Shown: positions 12,348 to 49,203 of the stretch, piece after piece | Layout of the letters: every line of letters begins with the position of its first letter | Position numbering within the stretch: position 1 is the stretch's first letter | Origin: Siphlonurus alternatus | Lineage: Eukaryota; Arthropoda; Insecta; Ephemeroptera; Siphlonuridae | DNA: 64,000 bases | Direction of reading: 5' to 3' | NCBI GenBank assembly: GCA_949825025.1 | Contig: OX463778.1 | Coordinates: 45,610,646 to 45,674,645, forward strand | Notes under the pieces: generated by a model | Seen by the model: the letters and a program-made list of their open reading frames with translations, nothing else | What the model was told of the DNA's origin: nothing | Databases searched by the model: none | Translations under genes and position numbers: made by a program

Positions 12348-12779
12348 CAAGGATTTTCTATACTATGGATAGGTGGGGCACTATCGTCAGTGAGGCAAGG
12401 TCGTGAGGAGGAAGGGGGTGGTGGTTACAATAGAATGTAGTAAAACATAGACACAACAACAAAGAAAAATTCCAGCCCTAAAAAAGGCTGAACTGAGGCG
12501 ACCCGCATACGGCATACATGACCAAAATGTGTCAATTGCCCCAAAATATAAACCAATCAATCAATACAATAGAATGTCCGCCATTTTACCATGGCCTGTG
12601 AAGCCAAAACAATACAAATTATTGCGCTCGGCGGCCATGATACCATGGTCTTTTGCCTCAGTACCTAGGATCATGTATAAAATAAAATATTTAAAAAAAA
12701 TTAAATCGCTCACTCTACTTTAAAAGAAATTATTATCGGCATCAGGCCTGATGTATTATTATCGTAGGGGTACTTATTT

Positions 12780-12945
12780 AAAAAAACAACAAAGATGTGA
12801 CTGGACGCAATACTATAATAGACAGCTAGCTAGCAGTTTAATCTATTACATAAAAAGTCTGGAGGACATTCATGAGCAATTAAACTTAGAGAGACTATGT
12901 TTTTATCTTAGCTCATGCCATGCGGTGTTGTATAAACTTCCAGAT

Positions 12946-12977
<32 letters not shown>

Positions 12978-13150
12978 TGAAAGTATACCTGCATGTGTTT
13001 AAGAAACAATTGTTTGACTACCTAATTAAAAAGAAAATATTACTCCATTAAGCTCATGCAAGGCAAAGAATGTCAATAATTTTATTTGTATAATTTTGTA
13101 TTGTAATAATTGAATATTGTTATTTTGTATGTTTGTCTATGTCTATTATT
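12780..13150 (+). mobile_element. 3' fragment of a LINE (RT C-terminal tail)
   Basis: The segment reads as QQRCDWTQ, then CFYLSSCHAVLYKLPDY. The same words occur at 30625-30780 and 57753-57960, where they form the C-terminus of a LINE polyprotein. A poly(A)/T tract at 12951-12977 interrupts it. Confidence 0.65.
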
Positions 13151-13549
13151 TTTAGAACCACAAGCAGGGATAAAAATTGAGGCCAAAGTGGGGGTTAAAG
13201 TGTTTGTGAATGCTCCCCATTATATATGTTTTAGATTAAAATTATTAACAAACATGGAATAAAAAGAGGTGAAGAATTATAATAATTAACAATATATACA
13301 GTATCATATAATTTATTGATGTCATTATAAAATCTTTCCACAAAATCTTTTTATGTGCATATGCCAACAGTCAGCATGCACTATATATATTCTTGATCAA
13401 AATCTTTTATTTTTTTCCAAATGGCTTTTAATTCTTTTAAAAATTGGCTTGCACGCAGGACTCCCCGGCAAAGTTTAGTGACTCAATATTGTTAAATTTA
13501 TCTGCCCAGGCCATATGTATATATATACTGCATGAAAAATTCATTTTAA

Positions 13550-13691
13550 GCCGGTATTACACGATACAATTTTTCTAGTTATTGTATACAATTTCTCCTT
13601 ACAAGAAAACTTCCACTCCATTTGTTTGTATGGAGATGAAATTTTCTTGCAAGGAAAAAATTGTATTATCATCGTGTATTATAATACCGGC
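13550..13691. mobile_element. Foldback MITE with TTAA duplication
   Basis: Its ends are GCCGGTATTACACGATACAA and the inverse, bounded by TTAA at 13546-13549 and 13692-13695. The middle also folds back (CTCCAT.../ATGGAG). Length 142 bp. Confidence 0.8.
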
Positions 13692-14162
13692 TTAAAGTGA
13701 AGTCCATGAAGACACTTTTTAATGTTTAATCATTGTCTACCCTTGCTGGCAACTATATTGTAAAAAAAACTTAGCTGCATCTTATATATTATGCAGTAAT
13801 GTATATATTATATATAAATTTATATTACATATATTTATTTATAATATATTTGCAAAATTTGCATATTATAGCCGTATAAAATATAAAAGAGAAAGCCAAA
13901 AAATGCTTATTTCTTGAGTAAAAAAATAGATAGTATTTTCTCTTTATTAAAATTCTTACTCATTACATAGAGTGCTGTACACCAAAAATGTGTCGTACTT
14001 GTTGACTGAAGCAACGGGTCCAAAGAAGGAACGTCAATAGAGTTTTGTCGGTGCGACAATGATGTGTTGGGCTTCCTCGCTTGCCTTTTCTGTGTAGAAA
14101 AGCATGATTAGTATTTAGGCAAAATTAAGCATAGACTTCCTGGTAGACTTAATTAAATAGTA

Positions 14163-14240
14163 CACTCCATTTGAATAAAAATATCCCATCCAGCTATGTT
14201 AAAGTATAGCCGGATCAGACATTTTTATCTGAATGGAGTG
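14163..14240. mobile_element. Short MITE with TA duplication
   Basis: The ends CACTCCATTTGA and TCTGAATGGAGTG are imperfect inverted repeats flanked by TA on both sides. Length 78 bp. Confidence 0.55.
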
Positions 14241-15133
14241 TACTTTAAGACAGGGACTGGATCCCGTATCCGGATCCGCTCATTATCCTGTTAAAAAAAT
14301 AAATGGACCAGATCCGGGTATCCCGATCACCTTAAAAATATAAATGGACCAAATCCGAATATCCCGATCCCCTAAAAAAAATAAAAGGATCTGGACACCC
14401 AGATACTTTTATATTTTTTAAAGAGGATCCAAAAAAGGGTTCAGGTATTTTAATTTTTTGATTTTCACTGTTTGAAGTTTGAATTTTATCTTCCCAACTT
14501 GCGCAATTTGCGGCTTCTTAAAAAATAAATATTTTCTCTTATTGACACAACATTGGGTGTTCATATATTATATATTTTCGTATTTCATTAATTTCAATTA
14601 AAAGTATTAAAACTAAATTTACACTTACGTACAGACCCCATGCTTATTTTTTTTTCTTTTTTTTTTTTTAAATTTGAAATGAAATTTGTGTTAATTTTTA
14701 TTCTTTTTATATGCATATTAAAATTAAATGATTAACTGTAAGAAAATTGTTCAAAATGTTTAAACAGTGCAATGAAATTCTTCGAATATTTAATCATATA
14801 ATTACCAATATTACCAATATATAATATAATTAACGTACAGTCGTATGGCATTTAATTAAACAATTAACAAACAACAGTTCTTATCATACATTATCAGTTA
14901 CAGTATCATATGCATAATATGTGTATGATACAGAGATACAGTACTGTACATACCCGTGTATCGAGACTGGCGTTTCTCCTTCATTTTGCAGGGATTTCCG
15001 CTTAGCAGCATTCTTGCAACCAGGTGCACAACATGTTCTTGTCATTAACGCTTATTTAGCTTCACATTTTCGTATAATATCACATAAAATATGGAGAAAA
15101 TAGTAAAAAATTGCAATTTTTTCTCCATCCCAA

Positions 15134-15185
15134 CATGGCGGACAACAATATCAAAACATTAGCGTCACGTGACTATCACGTGACC
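15134..15185. promoter_or_regulatory. Paired CACGTG E-boxes and a YY1-like site upstream of TBCA
   Basis: GTCACGTGAC at 15164-15173 and TCACGTGACC at 15176-15185 are two E-boxes 12 bp apart. AACATGGCGGAC, a YY1-like site, lies 30 bp before them. They sit about 280 bp upstream of the TBCA ATG but inside the right arm of the hAT-type element ending at 15262. A promoter role is inferred. Confidence 0.4.
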
Positions 15186-15455
15186 GTTACCACCCACTTC
15201 CTCCTCACGACCGAGCTTCACCGAGACAGCGCCATAGCCTATCCATACATACAAGATCCTTGCTCAGTACCAAGATCTTTACACGATCTTGGGACGTAGC
15301 GTATCCATCCTTAGTATAGAAAATCCTTGCAAAGAACACATGGACATCGTCGTCCCGTCGAGCAGTTTTCTTTAATTTGGAATCTAGGTTTGGTATTCTC
15401 CTAACAAGACTTGACAAGTATATAGGCATACATCAATAATCAAGAACTCATAATT

Positions 15456-21800: not shown

Positions 21801-24800
21801 TTTTTTTTCTAGACTACGAAAAACCTATCAATATTTTAATTCCCCTATAATTATGCAGTTTTACGATTAGTTTAAATGGAAAATATGTTGTTAAGCCCAC
21901 GGATACGTCCTTTAAGGACAACTTAAAACAGTCTACCAAAAATTGCTTAAAGCAATTTAATGTTAGTGACGTTATTGGTTGCAGGAGGAAGACACTCGTC
22001 GCGAGGCAGACGCGGTTCTAGGGGAGGTTCACCGAAAGCAAGTTGAGGGTCGACGTTGGCAGCAACTTCTAGGAGGCCTCGCCAAGCTGCGTCAGCTCAG
22101 AGCGCAAGCAGCAGCAGACAGAGGATTGCGACCATCCCAGCACGAAGACGAGTGCTTTGAAAAAGTCACAGGTGAGCCACAAGATTCAGGGCATGGCTTA
22201 GCTCATTGAAGTTTCCTTGCTCTGATATTTTGGAAAATAAAAGAGACAAAAGAACTGAGTGGTGGGGGAGATGGAAAGCAAACCCACCCATAGACCATGT
22301 AACCTCCCTAAGCCACAGTGTTTGGGGGTCAGGATAAACTTTTCAAACTACCCCCTTATCTATGCCACTGGCTCAGATTCCACTTCATTAACAATTGACC
22401 TCAGGTACTATGCGAGTCAAAGGAAATTTCTGTCAGACGGAATCAAATGAAGATGAAAAATCAGATGAAAAATTTGATAATGCTCTAAAACTCGATTGCT
22501 TATGGTTTGAGCAGATTCAAGGGGGCGGTTTCCTCCCAACAGCTCCATTTCCGGTTCCCGTCCATAAGGCCAATGTTAAACTTTTACCTCAGTTTTCTCA
22601 AAATTGATTAGACGGATCCACTTCAAAATTTACATGCCACCTATTGATGGTGAGTTCTAAGTTCTCTGTAAAGTACAAATCTTGTAGCATTTAAGGGAGC
22701 CGATTCCGAGATCTCAATCAACTGAGGTCAATCCTTAATTAAATTTAATCAGCTTCATTTTAGTTATTGTTATGTTCATGTTTAGTTTAACTATTTTTAT
22801 TTATTTTTGTTTTTAATCAAACCCTATTGGGTACTTCTATTTACTAATTACATACTACTTTCAAACCCCGAACCTTCCGAAACCCTAACTTGAGCGTTTT
22901 TCGGGCTCTTCTGGAACGGGGGCGGCCACGGCCTTACAAATCCATCCCCGCATTTGCCTGCGGCTGAGGAAAACATGGAAACCTCAGCCAGGATGGACGC
23001 TACAGCTTTTGTCGATGAACCGGAAGTGCAATGGTCCAAAGCCAGGGGAATCACATAGTGGAAAAGCGCAACGTTTTACCCCTGGGTGGGAAACGTGGTT
23101 TTTGTTGAAAATGGTCACCCATCCAACTACTAACCACGCGCGGCGTTCCTTGACTTCGGTGATCTGACGAGACCCGGTCGAGCGCACTGCGCCACACCTC
23201 CCACATAATACCCATAAATTCCACTAAACTTTACTTCTTTTTCTTAAATTATGTAAAAAATACACATTCGTTATGTTAATCTCTAAGAGAGAGAGAGAGA
23301 GAGAGAGAGAGACACACACACACACACAAGGGGGGGGGGGGGGGCTAACCCCAACTCTTTAAAGGGGTACCAAAGTGAATACTTTTTTTACATATTCGGG
23401 GAGCTAAGAATTATTCCAACATCCCTGTGGCTCAATGTTTTCGTACAATGCCTAGTTATTTTACAATTAATTATTTAGTTTGAAAAGTGAGTTTTATGGC
23501 CGTTGATTGATTCACGCCGATGCGCTCCCGCAGCGGCCGGTGATACGACAAGAAGGGGGCGGGAGGAGGTTCCCCCGATTCGCGGGAGATTCTCGTCGTA
23601 TCAGCCCCTGCTGCGGGCGCGCACCGACTTGAATCAACCAACGGTTTTTGAACTCACTTTTCAAACTAAATGATTAATTTTAAAATAACTAGGCATCGTA
23701 CGAAAATATTGAGCCACAGGGATATCAGAATAATTCTTAGCTGCCCGAATATGTAAAAAAAGTATTCACTTTGGGTGTAGTCCGTATTAGGTTCTGAACG
23801 TTCAGAACATATGAGTGATTACGGACCGACTCTGAACAAAAACATTGACTTCAGAACATCAGATAACGGACCACTTTAAGAACATCTTTTTCGCGGTAAT
23901 ACGCATCAGTTTAAAAAAAATACGAAAAAGAGAGAACTGTTCACTGGCTTCAGAAATTTTAACATAAAACTCACGTAACAGTTATTGATCACCAATTAAG
24001 CAAAGATTTACCTCAAATCAAACAGTTATCACGTAGGTTGCACCAAGGATTTTGTATGATCCTTGGGTTGCACAGGTTTGTTAAGTACTTTTCAAATTTC
24101 CCCCAAAAAATTGTGATCAGCTGACTCTAGTTCCGATGGTTCGGAGGAAAAGTTCGCAACACTCGGAACCTCTTTTTTGAAGTCAGCTGACTCACTTCGG
24201 GTAACCTCGGAAATGGTTCTGAACATTCAGAACATAATTACGGGACGCCAAATCGAAGGTTCCGAACGTTCAGAACATAATACGGACTACACCCTTTGGT
24301 ACCCCTTTAACTTTCATAGAAACAAAACATCAGTCTAGACAGAAATTCAGTTTGACCACTTTCAGGTTTTCACAATAACTTGATTTAAGGAACAAAAAAA
24401 TAAAACAAACTTTACCGGTAATTGCAAATTAATTCTATGAAACTGTGATTACAGCTGAGCTGAGCATACTATGGCAATCCCAGCTGCAGGACTATGCTGG
24501 AGAAGAGCACACCCTTCAAGTTATGCTGGAGAAAGAGGGTGTGGCACGCCGGCAGCAAAGTAAGACTGCACAGAACATATCATCACTGGCACATTGGGAG
24601 AAGCTGCTGTTTGGACCAACTCCCAACACCAGCTCTCAGGAGTTCCAGTTGCAAAACGGAGCAAACTCGGATCTGCATTCTTTGATCAGCATCAGGTGAG
24701 AAATCTCAGACTTTGGATAACAAATCGTGATTACCTTGTTAGACGGAAAAAGGAAAACAAGAACTGCTGCATATTTAATATTTAATGTGCTATAGAAGCA

Positions 24801-32100: not shown

Positions 32101-35100
32101 CAAACAGTCCAATAAGAACACACTAGAATCAAATGGATTCAAGAACAAAATAAATATAATATATTTTTAACAATTTTTGGTTAAAAGCAAGAGCCATCCA
32201 ACATTGAAATATTTTTCTTGTACCAGCTATATAACAATGTATTTTTTGAGTTAATCAAAGATGTTTTCCAGATACGTAAGACCCCATGTAACTGATGAGT
32301 TCTTTCTGACTCGCTTGAAAGACTGCAGCTAGTAACAATATGATGTGCTGCTTATTATGTACACATGCATATACTGCAGTCTGCAATATATTATAATATG
32401 TACAGTACATGAATATGCATTTATTATACAGTATACTGTATTATGTAGCTAGTACACAGTACTGCGATGTGTACAGCCTAACAGATCTTAGATAACTTGT
32501 AGACTCTCTGGTGCCTAGCTTCGAGAAATGAAGTCTAGCCGTTTGTCTGGATGGGAAAAAGTAAAAGAAGATTGCCGAGCGCAGTCGAATCTACACGTAA
32601 ACAAGAACTATAATACTGTATGCATTACATTGAAGTATGTATTCTATGGTTAATAAATGAAAATGTATTAATTGAACAAATTTGCCATTATATTACAGAA
32701 TATTATTTAAGACTTACCTTGTTCACATTCGACTGCACCTCGGGAAAGAGATCTAGAAGTCCAGTGGCCATGAAGACTCCGCCAGCAAAGCAACTCAATA
32801 ATCCAATTAAACGAGAGAATCTGTCAATACAAATTAAGAACACAGTAAAAATTTAACATACATAATTACAGCTATATACTGTAGCTAGGGTACGTGCATA
32901 TAATTATGTATCATATCATAACTATTTTTTTTACTTATGTTCTATTGGTTACATATACTGTACAGTAGTTCTATTTTTTATTATATTTTATTTTAAATAT
33001 CACTTGATACATTTCTAATTTCCCATTTAGAATAATCTCTATTATAGGGAAAGAAATTGTGGAATTTATTACAGTACTGTTTATTATTTTCATACAAGAT
33101 ATACGTGTAGTGAATGGTTTGAGTCCAAACTTAGATTTTTTGCAGATGATAGTGTGCTGCACAGAACAATTAAGAGTAAGGAGGATGAAATAGTGCTACA
33201 AAGAGATCTTAATTGACAAAGTGGGAAAATGGGTGACGGCCGGTTAACAAAATGAGTCTTAATGTGGGAAAATGTAGCGTGATGGTGATGGTGAGGAAAA
33301 GAGAGAACACAGACAGGAGGTACATTATTCGAGAGGAGGTATATAGTTAAGGAAGAAGATAAGTACAATTGCGCACCTGGGAGTAGTTATTCACAATAGC
33401 CTAAGGTGGAATGAACATAATAAGGTATGTGATATAGCAATGAGCAGAAGAAACCTAGAATTTGTGATGAGAAATTGGTATGGCACGAGTAGAATGGTGA
33501 AAGAAAAAGCATATATACAGTAAATCACTAATAGAGGCTTCAAGTCAGCTGATTTTTCGGTGATCCCACCCGCTATACCAAAACTATGTAAAAAAAAACG
33601 TGAATTCGTTTTTTCACCAAGAAAAAGATTTTTCAGGGATAATTCCTTTACGGAACTTTGGTCCAAACTGAAAAATAAAGTAGATAATTAAAGATTTAGA
33701 TTTTTTACTTGATTTATAACCGAGAAAAGTTAAAAAACACTTTGCTTCATTTTCAAGTGCAAGATGGACCTTAGCGACAAACAGTTGCGCAGCGAAAGCG
33801 CATCACTTGAAGCCTCCATTAGGCCAATAATCATAGAGTATAATAGGTGTAGTTTTTGGGACCCATATAGGCAGGAAGAGATAAGGAAAATGAAGAGAGT
33901 ATAAAGAAGGTAGGGCAGCAAGAAGGGTGCTAGGAAGAACAGGGGTTAAATTCGTTGGTAAAGATAATACTGTAACATTATTATAGAAAGGGACAGTGTA
34001 AAGGAGATGATTAAGGAGCTGGCCGGTACATGGGAGGCGCTTGAGGACAGAAGGAAAGATATATGCATATCAGACTTACAACGATGTATATAGAATAACA
34101 AGAGGATAGAAACGGGATGAGAGATAATCATAATAAAATTTATGCCATTGCTAAACTTGACTATAATCTTTTTCTGAAAATTTGTAATGTCAAAAATAAT
34201 AAAATTTATGTCAAATATAGTAGATGTTCAGTATATGAGCATATACCAATTGTGAGATGCCACAAATGCTGTGGCTTCCACCATGTTGCAAAATACTGCA
34301 AAAATAGGCCAGTATGCAGCCATTGTGGAGGTGAACATAATTTCAAGGTTTGTGAGAATAAGCATGCAGCTACAGTATGCCGAAACTGTGAAAATGACAG
34401 ATACAGAGACAAAGAGAATTATGGTACCAACCATAGCTCCCTGGATTGGCAATGCCCTATCTATGAGGCTGAAGTTTGCAAGTATCGTAGAAAAGTTGTA
34501 GAGAACTCGTAGGACAACAGCCTACAGTTAACGTTGAATTTATATTATTCTAATATTCAGGGATTTCATATTGATAAAATTCAACCTGTTATTGAAAAAA
34601 GGCCATATGCTATCTGTTTATCAGAAACCCATGTAATTAAAGATTTTTTTAGCAATGAATTAAGAATATCTGGGTATAATTTAATAAACTGCGAGTCATA
34701 TAGTCGTCATACTGGAGGTTGTATGATTTATGTCAGAGAAGATTTTAAAATAAAGTGTATTTATAATCATGTAGTAGATAATTGTATATGGATTGCAGGA
34801 GCAACAATTATAAAAAATAAAAAAGAACCTGATTTATATGTTCTTTATAGATCTCCTACTGGTTCTGCTCAAGTTTTTTATGATTTTTTTGAACTATGGA
34901 TCGACAAATTGCTTATTTCCAAAAATAGATTTTTTTTGCTTGGTGATTTTAATTTTAATCTACTGGATGTAACTAAAAGCAGAGAAATAAGAGTTTTGTT
35001 AGACAGTTCTAGTCTATTTCAATTAGTTGAGTCTCCTAATAGAATTACAAACCATAGTGAAACTTTAATTGATTTTGCAATCTCCAATTCAAATCAATTT

Positions 35101-38100
35101 AAAGTTAATTTTATTAAAAGTGATAATGTAAGTGATCACGAGTGTTTTAATTTAAATTTAGAATCTTTGTTTTTTCCTGTAGTTGAAAAAAATAAAAAAA
35201 CAAAAAAAGAATTTGTGAATGTTGATAAAATCAACACAAAAAAATGTAATATTGATAAATTAAGACAAAATTTGGCCAATAGTGTGTTGTCTCAAGTTGA
35301 TGGTTTTCTGGACCAAGCAGCGGATGATTTTGTAGATAAAATGAAAAAAGAAATTAATTTATGTTCTCCTGTTATTAAAATAAGATGTTTCAACCATAAG
35401 CTATGGTTATTTAATAATAAAAAAATAAAGGCAGCACGGGTTCTTAAAAATAAAGCATATAAATTGTATATAAATGATAAAAATAATTTAAATTGGGAAA
35501 AATATAAATTAGCAAGGAATAGATACACAAAAATTTTAAGAATTGAGAAAAATAAATATTTTGAAAATAAAAGTGACAAAAATAAAAATAAAAGTAAAGA
35601 AATGTGGAGTACTCTTAAAGAACTGACTGATACTGAAAATAAAAAAGGGAATCAAGATCAAAGTTTGGATAATGTCATTTTTCCAGCTAATAAAATATTC
35701 AGAGTACAAATAATAGTACGGCCACAAATTTTAACAATTTTTTTATTGATAGCATTGACGAAATTATTTCTTCGATTCCGGATGTAAAAGATGAAGAAAT
35801 GTTGTATAAGTTTTCAAATGTATTTCTCAAAGTTGTAAATTTAGTAAATTTAAACTATTGAATATTCAAGATTTAAAAAATATAGTAAATGGCCTTAATA
35901 GTAATACAGCATCTTTTGATGAGGTTAGTATCGATATAATTAAAAAAACATTTGATATCGTTGGTATTCAACTATTGAATATAATTAATATGTCACTTAA
36001 TACGGGTAAATTTCCAAAAGGGTGGAAGAAATCATTAATTAAGTTGATTGCCAAAGTAAAAAATTCAATACATCCTGCTGATTATAGGCCAATCAATATG
36101 TTACCGGCTTATAAAAAAATACTTGAGCTTGTAGTAAAAAATCAGTTATATGATTATTTTGTATCAAATAATTTATTTTATAAGTATCAGTCAGGTTTTA
36201 TGAAAGATGTATCAACGGAATCATCATTACAGTTTCTTTTATCAAACTGGTGTGATGATTTAGATAATAATAATGCAATTATTTCTGTAATGATTGATCT
36301 CAAACGGGCGTTTGAAACTATTGATAGAAGTATCCTTATTAAAAAAATGAAGTGTTATGGAATCGATGGTATTGTTCTCAAATGGTTTGAAAGCTATCTA
36401 GAAGATAGGGAACAATGTACAGTTATTGGTAATGACTCGTCAGAATTTAGAGAAATTAATGTTGGAGTTCCGCAAGGATCAGTTTTAGGTCCTTTGCTCT
36501 TTATTATATAAATATATTAATGACATGTATTTGCATGTTGATAAATCATTAATTAATTTGTTCGCGGATGATACTCTGATCTCAATATCTGGTAAAGAAT
36601 TCAAAATTTTATGTGATGATTTGAACAAAGATTTAGTTAAATTGTCTTTTTGGTTTAATTTGAATAAGTTGAAACTGAATGTTAAAAAAACTACTTGCAT
36701 GCTACTTGCAAGTTCTAATCGTAAGATAAATAATATTGTAAATAGTAATCCCAACTCAACGATCAACCTTGATGGAGAGTTACTGAAGTTTGAAAAAAAT
36801 GTTAAATATCTTGGTGTAGTTCTTGATAGTACTTTGAATTTTAATGATCATATTGAGTCCATGTCAAAAAAAATTGGTAAAAAAATTGGGTATTTAAGTA
36901 GAATCTCGGGATTCCTCAGCGTTTGGTGTAAAAATTTGGTATATAAAACTATAATTGCTCCTCATTTTGAATACTGTGCATCTTTGTTTTTTAATACGAG
37001 CAAAAGAAATATCAAATTATTACAAAGACTTCAAAACAGAGCGATGAAAATTATATTGGGTTGTAATAAAAGAACTCATACTATATTGTTGTTGGAAACT
37101 CTGCAATGGTTGAGTGTAAAACAAAGATATGCATTAAAAGTAGTACTGTTATTTTTTTATGATATTATTCATGATAAATTTCCTAAGCATTTTAAAAGTG
37201 AAATTGTTAAAAATAGTGAGATGCATACTTATAATACAAGAGGATGTAACAATTTTTTCAGAAAATGTGTCAATAAACAAAGATCAGATGGATCAATTTA
37301 TAACTGTGGGAAAAAATTGTTCAATGAACTATACCAGATAATATAAAAATATGTCATAATAAAAAAATGTTTAAAAGGCTATGTATTATATATGTGAAGG
37401 AAAGATTTCCCTATAGCAGTTAATTATTTATTCATTGTGTAAGTAATTATTTGTAAAACTATCTTATATGTTAATTGGTATTTTGCTATTTCTGTTTTAA
37501 TATATTGGTTCGTTCTGTATAAATAGGCATAAAAAATTATGAAACAAATTTTTATGTGATATTGTAAAATCAATTAATTACAGTAATATGTAACCAACTA
37601 TTATGAATTTAAATAGCGAAAGCTAAAATAAAGATTATTTCATTTCATTTCAAAGCAGGAGATGAGTGAGGGGGCAGTTAAAGGCAGATATATAGAGGGG
37701 ATTGCGCTGACGTCATGAGAGGAGAGCCAGAATGCACGGACTAGCATCACACATAAACAAAGAGTGTACAATAATTTTGTTACTTCACGTAATAAAATAA
37801 ATCAAGTTTAAAAACTTTAATAATATTTTGACAGTACGTACACAATAGAAGTCATAAAAAAAAATATCACAGCCAAAAAACTGTTACTGTAAAAGTGTTT
37901 TTTATTTTTTTTATTTATTTTTTTTTTTTCATTTTGCCTATGCTCACTGTACAATCTGGCCTGCCAATACTTTCTCTTTTCCCTCCCTCCTGCGCCCCCT
38001 TCGCTTGAGCAGGTAATAAAGGGACTAACCCTCTCCCGCCTCACGTAAACATAACCAGAAATCAGCTCTGTATAGGATAGGGGAAAGAGGGACCACGAGT

Positions 38101-38635: not shown

Positions 38636-38659
38636 CAAGGATTTTGTATGTGATCCTTG
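38636..38659. mobile_element. 24-bp terminal-only hAT-type insertion
   Basis: The insert begins CAAGGATTTTGTATG and ends TGATCCTTG. A perfect 8-bp duplication, GTGTCACC, flanks it (38628-38635 and 38660-38667). It differs from the 22-bp insert at 24044 only by two extra bases in the middle but has a different target. Confidence 0.88.
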
Positions 38660-38783
38660 GTGTCACCTGTAAGATCATGTGTTTCCTTGTCAACAAACAT
38701 GTCACGTGATCATCGCCCAATCAAAACATGAGGAACGATGAGCCGGAGAGGGGATGAACAGAGCGTACTTGAGTAGGCTAATC

Positions 38784-39029
38784 CAAGGTTTCTTTATACC
38801 TAGGATCATAAGATCCTTGCTTTATACAGGTTAAGACACGCACGCATTTCGTGCGTCAATTTTGTTAAATTTTCAGGCCCCATTGTACCGCGAAATTTCA
38901 AAAATAGCATTGCATGATGGGCGCATTCAAAGTTTCGCGGCACGATGTGGCCAAAAATAATTGAACGTGATTGGCTAAGACCTTTAACATTGGTCCAATC
39001 GGTGACTTAACCTGTATAAAGGAACGTTG
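38784..39029. mobile_element. 246-bp hAT-type MITE with 8-bp duplication
   Basis: Left end CAAGGTTTCTTTATAC, right end GTATAAAGGAACGTTG, flanked by GGCTAATC at 38776-38783 and 39030-39037. The left inverted repeat is interrupted after CTTTATAC by the 20-bp insertion at 38800-38819 and then continues AGGTTAAG. Confidence 0.85.
38800..38819. mobile_element. 20-bp terminal-only hAT-type insertion
   Basis: The insert is CTAGGATCATAAGATCCTTG, with CTTTATAC duplicated on both sides (38792-38799 and 38820-38827). Its first 10 bp equal the first 10 bp of the hAT-type element at 12665. Its last 10 bp equal the last 10 bp of that element. Confidence 0.9.
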
Positions 39030-39279
39030 GGCTAATCAAGTTCGCTCTGGCATGGAGAAATAATTTATCCATGGCTCTGGGATGAAGAAGCTGATCCACC
39101 AATCACATCAAACTGCGGGAAATTTTGGATAAAATAAAATGTTTAACTTCCAGGGTCTCTGTTTATAACTTTTGTTCTGCTTCTTCTGGAGAGCTAGGTT
39201 ACATATGGCATGATATGGCACTATAATAATATACTGTTTAATATATATGTAATAAAAATATAATATATTTATTTTATGT

Positions 39280-46753: not shown

Positions 46754-46860
46754 CTTTCAAATGTCCCGAAACATCTACGAAACAAGACAGATATTCTATT
46801 AGACATTTTAAATTCAAATGGCTACTTATTCTCTAATAGCCCGCGCCCCTAGAAAAAACT

Positions 46861-49203
46861 TTTGTAAACGCAAATGGTTCAAGTACAATCGACCTGCTTT
46901 TTTATAAACCTAAAAATTTTATATTAATAAAACATGTCATTATTTCTGAGACAAACTCGTCACTGTTAAAGAGTCATCTACCCGGTGAAATTATTTTAAA
47001 ATTTACCCCTAGCAATCCTCCCAATAAAAAATTTTTTTACAGATCAAATTATTCAAACAAAATTGATATTAGAAATTATAATGACCAAATTTATACTTAT
47101 GGTGATACCATAATTACTCATATCAATAATAAAGATGTAAATAGTCTAAATACTTTAATTACTAATGTCATTCTATATTCTACTATTGCAAAGAAAAATA
47201 ATAAAAGAGTATCTAAACCCTGGTTTAATAGCGAATGTTATCTATCAAGGCAAGATCTTCTATCAAAATTTTATGCCAGCAAATTATATTTATTCAAAAA
47301 CCCAAATTTGCATGAGCAATTTATTCAGGCAAGAAGCTGTTATAAGGCTTTATTGAAGCAGAAAGAATTAGAATTTAAAATTAAATCGGAAGATAAAATG
47401 ATTAAAGACGCAGAGCTAGAACCATACACATATCTTAGGAAAGATAGACCACCAACTAAGTCATGCCCAATTAACATAGACAAATGGGAAAACTATTTTA
47501 CAAATATCTTAAATACAAATAAATTACAATCCGACCAAACTCTCAATCTTTTATCATTAACAAGAGACTATAATTGTAACTCAAATTATATTCCTCTTAA
47601 TGAATTTGAAGTCTATAATTGTATGCAAAGCCTAAAAAACAATAAAGCTTCGGGCCCAGATTTTATTACGAATGAACATTTGAAGCTAGTAAGCAAGTCG
47701 TTAACCCCAACAATCACCAATATGTTTAACCTCTGTATTGAAACGGCTACAATTCCGGAATTGTGGCGGATCGCCTACCTAATGGTATTATACAAAGGGA
47801 AGGGTAACATTATGTCACCCGACTCATACAGAGGTATTATCCATGGTGATACCATGTACAAACTCTTCTCGAGATTAATTGCAAACAGGCTTTTTGATTC
47901 CACCCACTATCTTATTCCAAAAGAGCAATACGGCTTTATGCCAGGACGTTCCACAATACAAGCTGTATCCACAGTATATAATCAAATTAAACTAGCATTG
48001 GAGAAGCCAAAGGGTCATTTATATATTGCTTTTGTAGACTTCAGAAAAGCTTTTGATTCGGTCAATAGGAATTTGCTCATTGAAAAGCTGAAGTCATTTA
48101 AAGTAATTCCTTCTGAAATTTTGAATATCTTAGCTGTTATTCTAAATATCAATTATGTATGTGTTCAAGATCGCTTATCATGTTCTAGTAATATTATTCA
48201 ATCTAACGGAGTTTTGCAAGGAGACCCGAGCAGCTCTCTTCTTTTCAATCTTTTTACTGCAGATATAACTGAGATTACAAAAGATATAAACTGTGAAAAT
48301 GAAAATGATCAAGTCGTACTAAATTTATATGCAGATGATCTTGCTATTATTTCAAAGAGCAAAGTCAAGCTACAAAAAGCGCTAAATAATCTATCCATCT
48401 GGGCCAAAACAAATGGTCTAGAAATTAACACAGAGAAAACCAAGGTTGTTAAGTTTAGAAGAGGCGGACCGTTATGCAAAAACGATGAAATTTATTGTGA
48501 CGGTCAAAAGATTGAATTTCTAAATTCATTTAAATATCTTGGCATAATACTTCAAATGACAGGGCTTTCTTTTTCTAAACATATAACAGAAAGATGTAAG
48601 AACGCTATCACTGTTATGTACACTATCTCAGGGCTGTCTGGTCTATCCGTCAAAACAGGGCTCAAACTGTTCAATTTAAAAGTCGCCCCTGTGGCTACTT
48701 ATGGTATTGAAATTGTATGGCCTCATTTATCTGTATCCGATTTTGATAAATTAGAATCAGTAAAAGCCATGTTTGTTAAAAGATTACTGTGTCTGTCAAA
48801 ATTTACCGAAACTAGACTGGCCTATAAACTGATAGATTCCAATTATTTTATTACAGAAATCAAAGAAATGTTTAAACTTCCAACGACAGATCAATATTCC
48901 AATTTTATAGCTGTCAGGAATCAAAAAGCTCAGGATATTAATCCTGAGTTTTACAGCACTGATGCTATGACATGTAAATATTGGTGTCTGCCCCAATTGG
49001 ATAGATCCAATGTTAGAAATGTTTTAACTCGCCAGGCTGTTCACGGCTTCCACTATCTAATTTGTAAATCTTCTGGTTATCATAAAGCTGAACAATCTTG
49101 TGTATGTAAATTATGTAATGAATATTGTAGCCAATATCATTTAAATATCTGTAAATCTAGAATTAAGTCTATTAGCGATTATGCCAGGGGAGATTTCATA
49201 TAG
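46861..49203 (+). pseudogene. LINE ORF2, reverse transcriptase part, open for about 780 codons
   Basis: The frame has no stop from 46861 to TAG at 49201-49203. RT landmarks: NNKASGPDFITNEHLK, SYRGIIHGDTMYKLFSR, YIAFVDFRKAFDSVNR, GVLQGDPSSSLLFNL, LNLYADDLAII and FKYLGIILQ. The C-terminus has a CKLCNEYCSQYHLNIC zinc-knuckle-like motif. An in-frame TAG just upstream (46857-46859) and the 5' truncation make the copy inactive. It reads as an APE-type LINE; clade uncertain. Confidence 0.85.

Follow-up and report, generated by a model that had tools for sequence, protein, structure and literature searches.

How does a piece of DNA made of two transposon tips, with nothing between them, come to lie inside a perfect target-site duplication? 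The question is raised by 20 bp within the 64,000-nucleotide stretch analysed here (the window), the features of which are collected in Table 1. Positions 38792-38827 read CTTTATAC, CTAGGATCAT-AAGATCCTTG, CTTTATAC, that is, two 10-bp tips enclosed by an 8-bp repeat, as the initial annotation had described. The tips had been traced to a 2.6-kb element in the same window, and that element indeed starts with CTAGGATCAT and finishes with AAGATCCTTG. The piece sits inside the left inverted repeat of a host MITE flanked by a duplication of its own, in agreement with the earlier claim that it was inserted into an older element. The right inverted repeat of the MITE is uninterrupted and holds a single CTTTATAC, so the duplication around the 20-mer most likely came with an insertion.

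Table 1. Features of the window that bear on the origin of the 20-bp piece.
Position	Strand	Feature	Remarks
12348..15329	.	Related element of 376 bp, not counting the 2598-bp copy nested in it	Duplication CAAAGAAC
12665..15262	-	Internally deleted copy of the parent family, 2598 bp	Duplication CTCAGTAC
12665..12678	.	14 nt of the CTAGG end, fused straight to internal sequence (one-sided deletion)	L001 compared with L002-L008
14953..15045	-	Probable 31-residue first exon of THAP type; a GTATGT splice donor comes next	Identical in 8 of 8 copies; THAP assignment weak
24044..24065	+	22-bp two-tip piece CAAGGATTTTGTATGATCCTTG	Duplication GGTTGCAC
38636..38659	+	24-bp two-tip piece CAAGGATTTTGTATGTGATCCTTG	Duplication GTGTCACC
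38776-38783 and 39030-39037		Duplication of the host MITE, GGCTAATC	
38784..39029	.	Host MITE, 218 bp when insert and one duplication are not counted	
38792..38799	.	8-bp target duplication CTTTATAC, left copy	
38800..38819	+	20-bp two-tip piece CTAGGATCATAAGATCCTTG, a very probable excision footprint	10 nt of the CTAGG end and 10 nt of the CAAGG end
38820..38827	.	8-bp target duplication CTTTATAC, right copy	
39006..39029	-	Partner inverted repeat of the host MITE, uninterrupted, with a single CTTTATAC	Empty site within the window

The 20-mer is not alone. Scanning the window for exact 8-bp duplications that flank C[AT]AGG...CCT[AT]G at 14-8000 bp returned five matches, three of them ultrashort (20, 22 and 24 bp). 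Matches of 14-60 bp numbered three in the window and zero in 60 sequences simulated from the dinucleotide transitions of the window. The window also includes a ZIP transporter exon, as well as two long plus-strand frames (34099-37346 and 46840-49203) whose translations look by eye like non-LTR retrotransposons, with endonuclease and reverse transcriptase.

The 2.6-kb element that shares the tips has many relatives in its own genome of 455.7 Mb. Among the 40 candidates scored, near-full-length relatives are 94-99% identical to it and mostly start at query position 12. Six of seven copies outside the window are 3.5-3.9 kb long, with exact duplications and the ends CAAGGATCTTGTATGTATGGATAGGC and CTAGGATCATGTATGTATGGATAGGC; for the seventh (L005), the second duplication was not found in the stretch examined. 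Since the related copies are 3.5-3.9 kb, the window copy represents an internal deletion and not a full element: about 0.9 kb is missing beside its CTAGG end. The 14 nt that it keeps of this end are what one-sided copying followed by joining is expected to leave, and their fusion to an internal point fits aborted gap repair. The copy resembles internally deleted P elements, which PMC2895639 attributes to template copying and then end joining. The parent tips are unequal, one being CAAGG and the other CTAGG, and the inverted ends match across 25 bp; both the 8-bp duplication and the CA-type inverted ends are features of the P superfamily. The 376-bp related element that is interrupted by the 2598-bp copy has the ends CAAGGATTTTCTATAC, and its family seems to leave scars of its own (L025, L035, L054).

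The initial annotation had named an excess of such structures across the genome as the check on its observation, and the excess is there. We searched the genome with patterns requiring 7 nt of each end, so that scars trimmed further are left uncounted, and used the reversed pattern as control. The pattern CTAGGATN{0,26}ATCCTTG found 96 matches against 7 for its control. For pieces with CAAGGAT ends, CAAGGATN{4,16}ATCCTTG (18-30 bp) found 116 against 3, and CAAGGATN{17,46}ATCCTTG (31-60 bp) found 193 against 15. The 61-90 bp class showed 59 against 11, about half of this size class being something else, as a single 66-bp repeat makes up 18 of its 50 listed loci. This repeat (CAAGGATCTGGATCCCGGATCC...; G000:C1:1409243-1409308 and 17 more) is spread over many contigs and is by eye unrelated to the scars. 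Viral contigs scanned with CAAGGATTTTGTATN{0,12}ATCCTTG gave no match.

The CTAGGATN set was examined through the first 62 of its 96 matches. Fifty-five of the 62 read CTAGGATCAT...GATCCTTG and hence carry both unequal ends of one parent. This linkage had been forecast before the search result was available, as a CTAGG tip was expected to be paired with the CAAGGATCTT tip of its own parent. Perfect 8-bp duplications flank 48 of the 55 family-specific pieces, the window piece included, and duplications with at most one mismatch flank 50; the corresponding count for the other 7 pieces is 0. The family pieces form a ladder of 20-40 bp with different joins, in which one 32-mer accounts for 15 of the 55. 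From the CAAGGAT sets we examined 50 of the 116 loci of 18-30 bp and 50 of the 193 loci of 31-60 bp. The shorter loci had perfect 8-bp duplications in 30 of 50 cases and at most one mismatch in 33, with 17 having no duplication within one mismatch. When pooled, the CAAGGAT sets comprise 104 distinct matches, among which are some compounds that overlap; 58 of the 104 show perfect duplications and 65 show at most one mismatch. Both sets together (65 plus 50, minus a few compounds counted twice) provide more than 100 duplication-bearing pieces.

Analysis of the 50 family pieces with duplications divided them into 40 simple two-end joins and 10 with an insertion or change. The length of end that is kept has its mode at 17 nt on both sides, with exactly 17 nt in 17 of the 40 joins per side, and the window piece, which keeps 10 + 10 nt, lies within this limit. 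We compared the joins with nulls of independent uniform trimming, which are simple, so that the P values give direction and strength and not exact odds: in 36 of 40 joins neither kept end is longer than 17 nt (uniform null 0.395, P 4e-11), and an overlap of at least 2 bp is seen in 29 of 40 (null 0.34, P 8e-7). All but one of the 40 joins are of even length. Overlaps of 2 bp, TA or AT, are favoured and give products of 22, 24, 26, 28 and 32 bp, and TA/AT pairing predicts six products, to which 28 of the 50 family pieces correspond. In the CAAGGAT set, the common 28-mer is the product expected of two 17-nt 3' tails paired TA with TA; a CAAGGAT 32-mer was forecast from the first 50 pieces and later found with perfect duplications.

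Join counts in the CAAGGAT set cover only pieces with at most one duplication mismatch (65 of 104). Simple joins account for 31 of the 65, and the other 34 are insertions, changes or compounds. The 62 ends of the simple joins include 20 of exactly 17 nt, none of 18, four of 19 and none above. Exceptions to the 17-nt limit are thus found in both sets, with 18-19 nt kept in 4 of the 40 family joins and two CAAGGAT 38-mers that join 19 + 19 nt. The loci L107, L094, L142 and L161 keep 19 nt of an end, as 38-mers (19 + 19) or 36-mers (19 + 17), and slippage of a GTAT repeat during fill-in may have caused the 36-mers. A size limit near 34 bp had been forecast and held only roughly: pieces with copied or other insertions reach 44 bp and more. 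The template test was further restricted to insertions of at least 4 nt in pieces of at most 45 bp: 7 of 23 such insertions resemble the tails or flanks more closely than shuffles do (p<=0.05), and the remaining 16 show no clear template in tails or flanks when compared with shuffles.

We consider it very probable that the piece at 38800-38819 is the scar of an excision, in which a P-type transposase removed a transposon of the 3.5-kb family and the cell joined the leftover tails. In such an event the transposase would make staggered cuts, at the junction on one strand and 17 nt into the element on the other, and the donor chromosome would be left with a 17-nt 3' tail of each element end. End joining would pair short overlaps of the tails, with trimming and fill-in to follow, and a polymerase-theta-like route is probably among the routes used. 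At 38800-38819 a full element would formerly have been present and would then have been lost in place; both tails were probably cut back to 10 nt and joined without overlap, and the resulting scar would be expected to be dead, with no further movement. The bases of the 20-mer are best read as trimmed, uncut tails, for which no copying is required. The earlier proposal of aborted gap repair after excision therefore stands in part: an origin in post-excision repair is retained and the mechanism suits the 2.6-kb copy, but copying of 10 nt is unneeded for the 20-mer.

These features can be set beside excision in Drosophila, where the cut made by P transposase falls at the junction for the 3' ends and 17 nt within the element for the 5' ends (PMC7776569), and 17-nt 3' tails stay on the donor (PMC2895639). 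The P{wa} junctions described in PMC2895639 share with the pieces here the 8-bp duplication, kept ends of up to 17 nt, joins that are either blunt or overlap by 2 bp (AT/TA), and templated insertions, and include a 32-bp 17 + 17 product sharing TA (Table 1 of that paper). The same table gives 44 of 52 ends at 16-17 nt, a count taken over 26 of about 66 isolates, namely those with both tails retained and no insertion; isolates with long overlaps, a lost tail or insertions were left out (PMC2895639). In a further 20 isolates, joining at long overlaps removed most of the tails (PMC2895639); joins losing nearly all of the tails, frequent in the fly, are invisible to our patterns. The two data sets also differ in their setting, since P{wa} is a laboratory assay of one locus in repair-mutant flies, whereas here many natural loci, several families and other end sequences are represented. 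The commonest product with both tails is 30 bp (AT overlap) in the fly, according to the same table, and 32 bp (TA overlap) here. For human polymerase theta, two terminal base pairs are described as enough to prime synthesis (PMC11292364), a property compatible with the TA joins seen here.

The duplications themselves do not discriminate between superfamilies. The P target preference has the consensus GTCCGGAC. The 48 perfect pieces show G1 in 28, T2 in 24, A7 in 25 and C8 in 31, which suits P and also suits nTnnnnAn, the hAT pattern; the consensus thus decides nothing. The parent has a 31-residue open start, MTRTCCAPGCKNAAKRKSLQNEGETPVSIHG, 217 bp inward of the CAAGG end and followed by GTATGT, and the same start is present in 8 of 8 copies. 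The first intron of THAP genes commonly falls at this point. The start resembles a THAP first exon, but this reading is suggestive only, because a Pfam search of the exon gave no match and its best PDB match, THAP11, is weak (E 0.74).

A search of the genome for the P-transposase RNase H domain gave 29 matches, all above the curated cut-off, against none in 14 control genomes of unspecified kind. One genomic ORF combines THAP, HTH, the N and C parts of RNase H and a GTP-binding domain. The CAAGGAT/CTAGGAT terminal pair was not found around the five P-transposase loci examined (L109-L113), and no intact transposase gene was linked to the parent ends CTAGGATCATGTATG and CAAGGATCTTGTATG at these five loci. 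Two P-transposase stretches, L110 (G000:C3:26965300-26970200) and L114 (C5:37923376-37928275), are 99.65% identical over 4.9 kb, suggesting recent duplication of a large P-like element or segment; since both are alike across the entire 4.9-kb stretch, the element edges were not reached. Together, the cut geometry, the duplications, the probable THAP exon and the genomic P transposases form a good but indirect case that the parent belongs to the P superfamily. In common with the superfamily (PMC7776569) and zebrafish THAP9/Pdre2 (PMC10983969) are the 8-bp duplication, the 17-nt stagger that we infer here, the P-transposase genes of the genome and the probable THAP exon of the parent; the difference is that the parent copies examined here are non-coding derivatives.

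The initial annotation had labelled the piece and its parent hAT-type, and a hAT element might have shrunk in place, either by aborted gap repair copying about 10 nt per end or by an extreme internal deletion. CAAGG/CTAGG tips would satisfy loose hAT consensus rules, and hAT elements share the 8-bp duplication with the parent family, whose T2/A7 duplications suit hAT as well. The 2.6-kb copy in the window did arise by internal deletion, but arbitrary deletion explains neither the 17-nt peak nor why most ends stop there, and it offers no reason for the same few TA/AT products to recur from one family. The genome, moreover, encodes P transposases, the search having covered the P type. According to PMC3878927, hAT transposition closes the flanking donor ends as hairpins, and hAT scars should therefore be without element ends, whereas the scars here keep 10-17 nt of both. 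The peak of kept ends at 17 nt resembles P-element excision, and the hAT label is not supported; shrinkage of a hAT element in place appears very improbable.

A still smaller probability attaches to the view that the 20-32 bp pieces are mobile in their own right: they would form a family of ultrashort palindromic MITEs that a transposase moves as intact units and inserts with 8-bp duplications. Identical 28-mers and 32-mers do recur at many sites, flanked by perfect duplications that differ from site to site, and the window 20-mer CTAGGATCATAAGATCCTTG has an exact second copy in the genome (L134) within a different duplication, AACCGGAC. The repeated forms, however, are mostly those predicted from 2-bp pairing of 17-nt tails, and the remaining forms look more like a ladder of varied joins and insertions than like copies of a single master sequence. 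P transposition in Drosophila probably requires well over 100 bp of each end. Least probable of all is a transposase-free loss of the middles of old full-length elements, with the inverted ends as the site of replication slippage or of cruciform deletion: the ends can pair and many products are near-palindromic, but nothing in such a process causes a halt at 17 nt on both sides, ends matching over 25 bp should often be kept longer, and the tail-copied insertions in part of the cases point to end joining.

Excision by a P-type transposase is thus the reading on which we proceed. The initial annotation had looked to a possible class of terminal-only elements; the pieces are instead read as excision footprints, of a kind already known from fly assays, and they are no new class of tiny mobile element. 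Of interest here is the genome-wide archive, with several source families and a readable repair spectrum. The genome assembly of a non-model species seems to have preserved P-type excision scars as an archive, which could reveal the cut geometry (17 nt) of an unisolated transposase without a cross or an assay, and could show how breaks are joined in germ cells, through 2-bp overlaps and copied insertions. Annotators should bear in mind that a short terminal-only "element" between perfect duplications may be a scar, and that scars of this kind can separate P from hAT where duplication length fails. No genome-wide catalogue of P-type scars was found among open-licence PMC papers, which is weak evidence of absence. 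A catalogue of excisions in rice (PMC4423477) likewise draws natural DNA-transposon scars, with filler segments, from assemblies; it compares two genomes and reports 94 putative excisions, and the passages concerned do not describe a 17-nt tail signature.

Two further groups of pieces differ from the simple scars. Near-palindromes of about 42-52 bp with CAAGGAT ends, several of them centred on AACCTCGAGGTT, were seen at L060, L078, L089, L090 and G000:C6:28518968-28519034. The four that were examined have 8-bp duplications, three perfect and one with a single mismatch. Exceeding 17 + 17 nt, these palindromes would be scars of a differently cut family or a very short true MITE. There is a slight chance that some palindromes, above all the recurrent forms of 28 and 32 bp and the class of about 48 bp centred on AACCTCGAGGTT, have been re-mobilised by a P-type transposase; if so, they would be the smallest known transposons, and tips alone would suffice for transposition. 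Compound pieces (G000:C1:3829756-3829825, L012, L030) consist of two or three tip-tip units in tandem or nested, which would fit repeated rounds of excision and of insertion or repair at one site.
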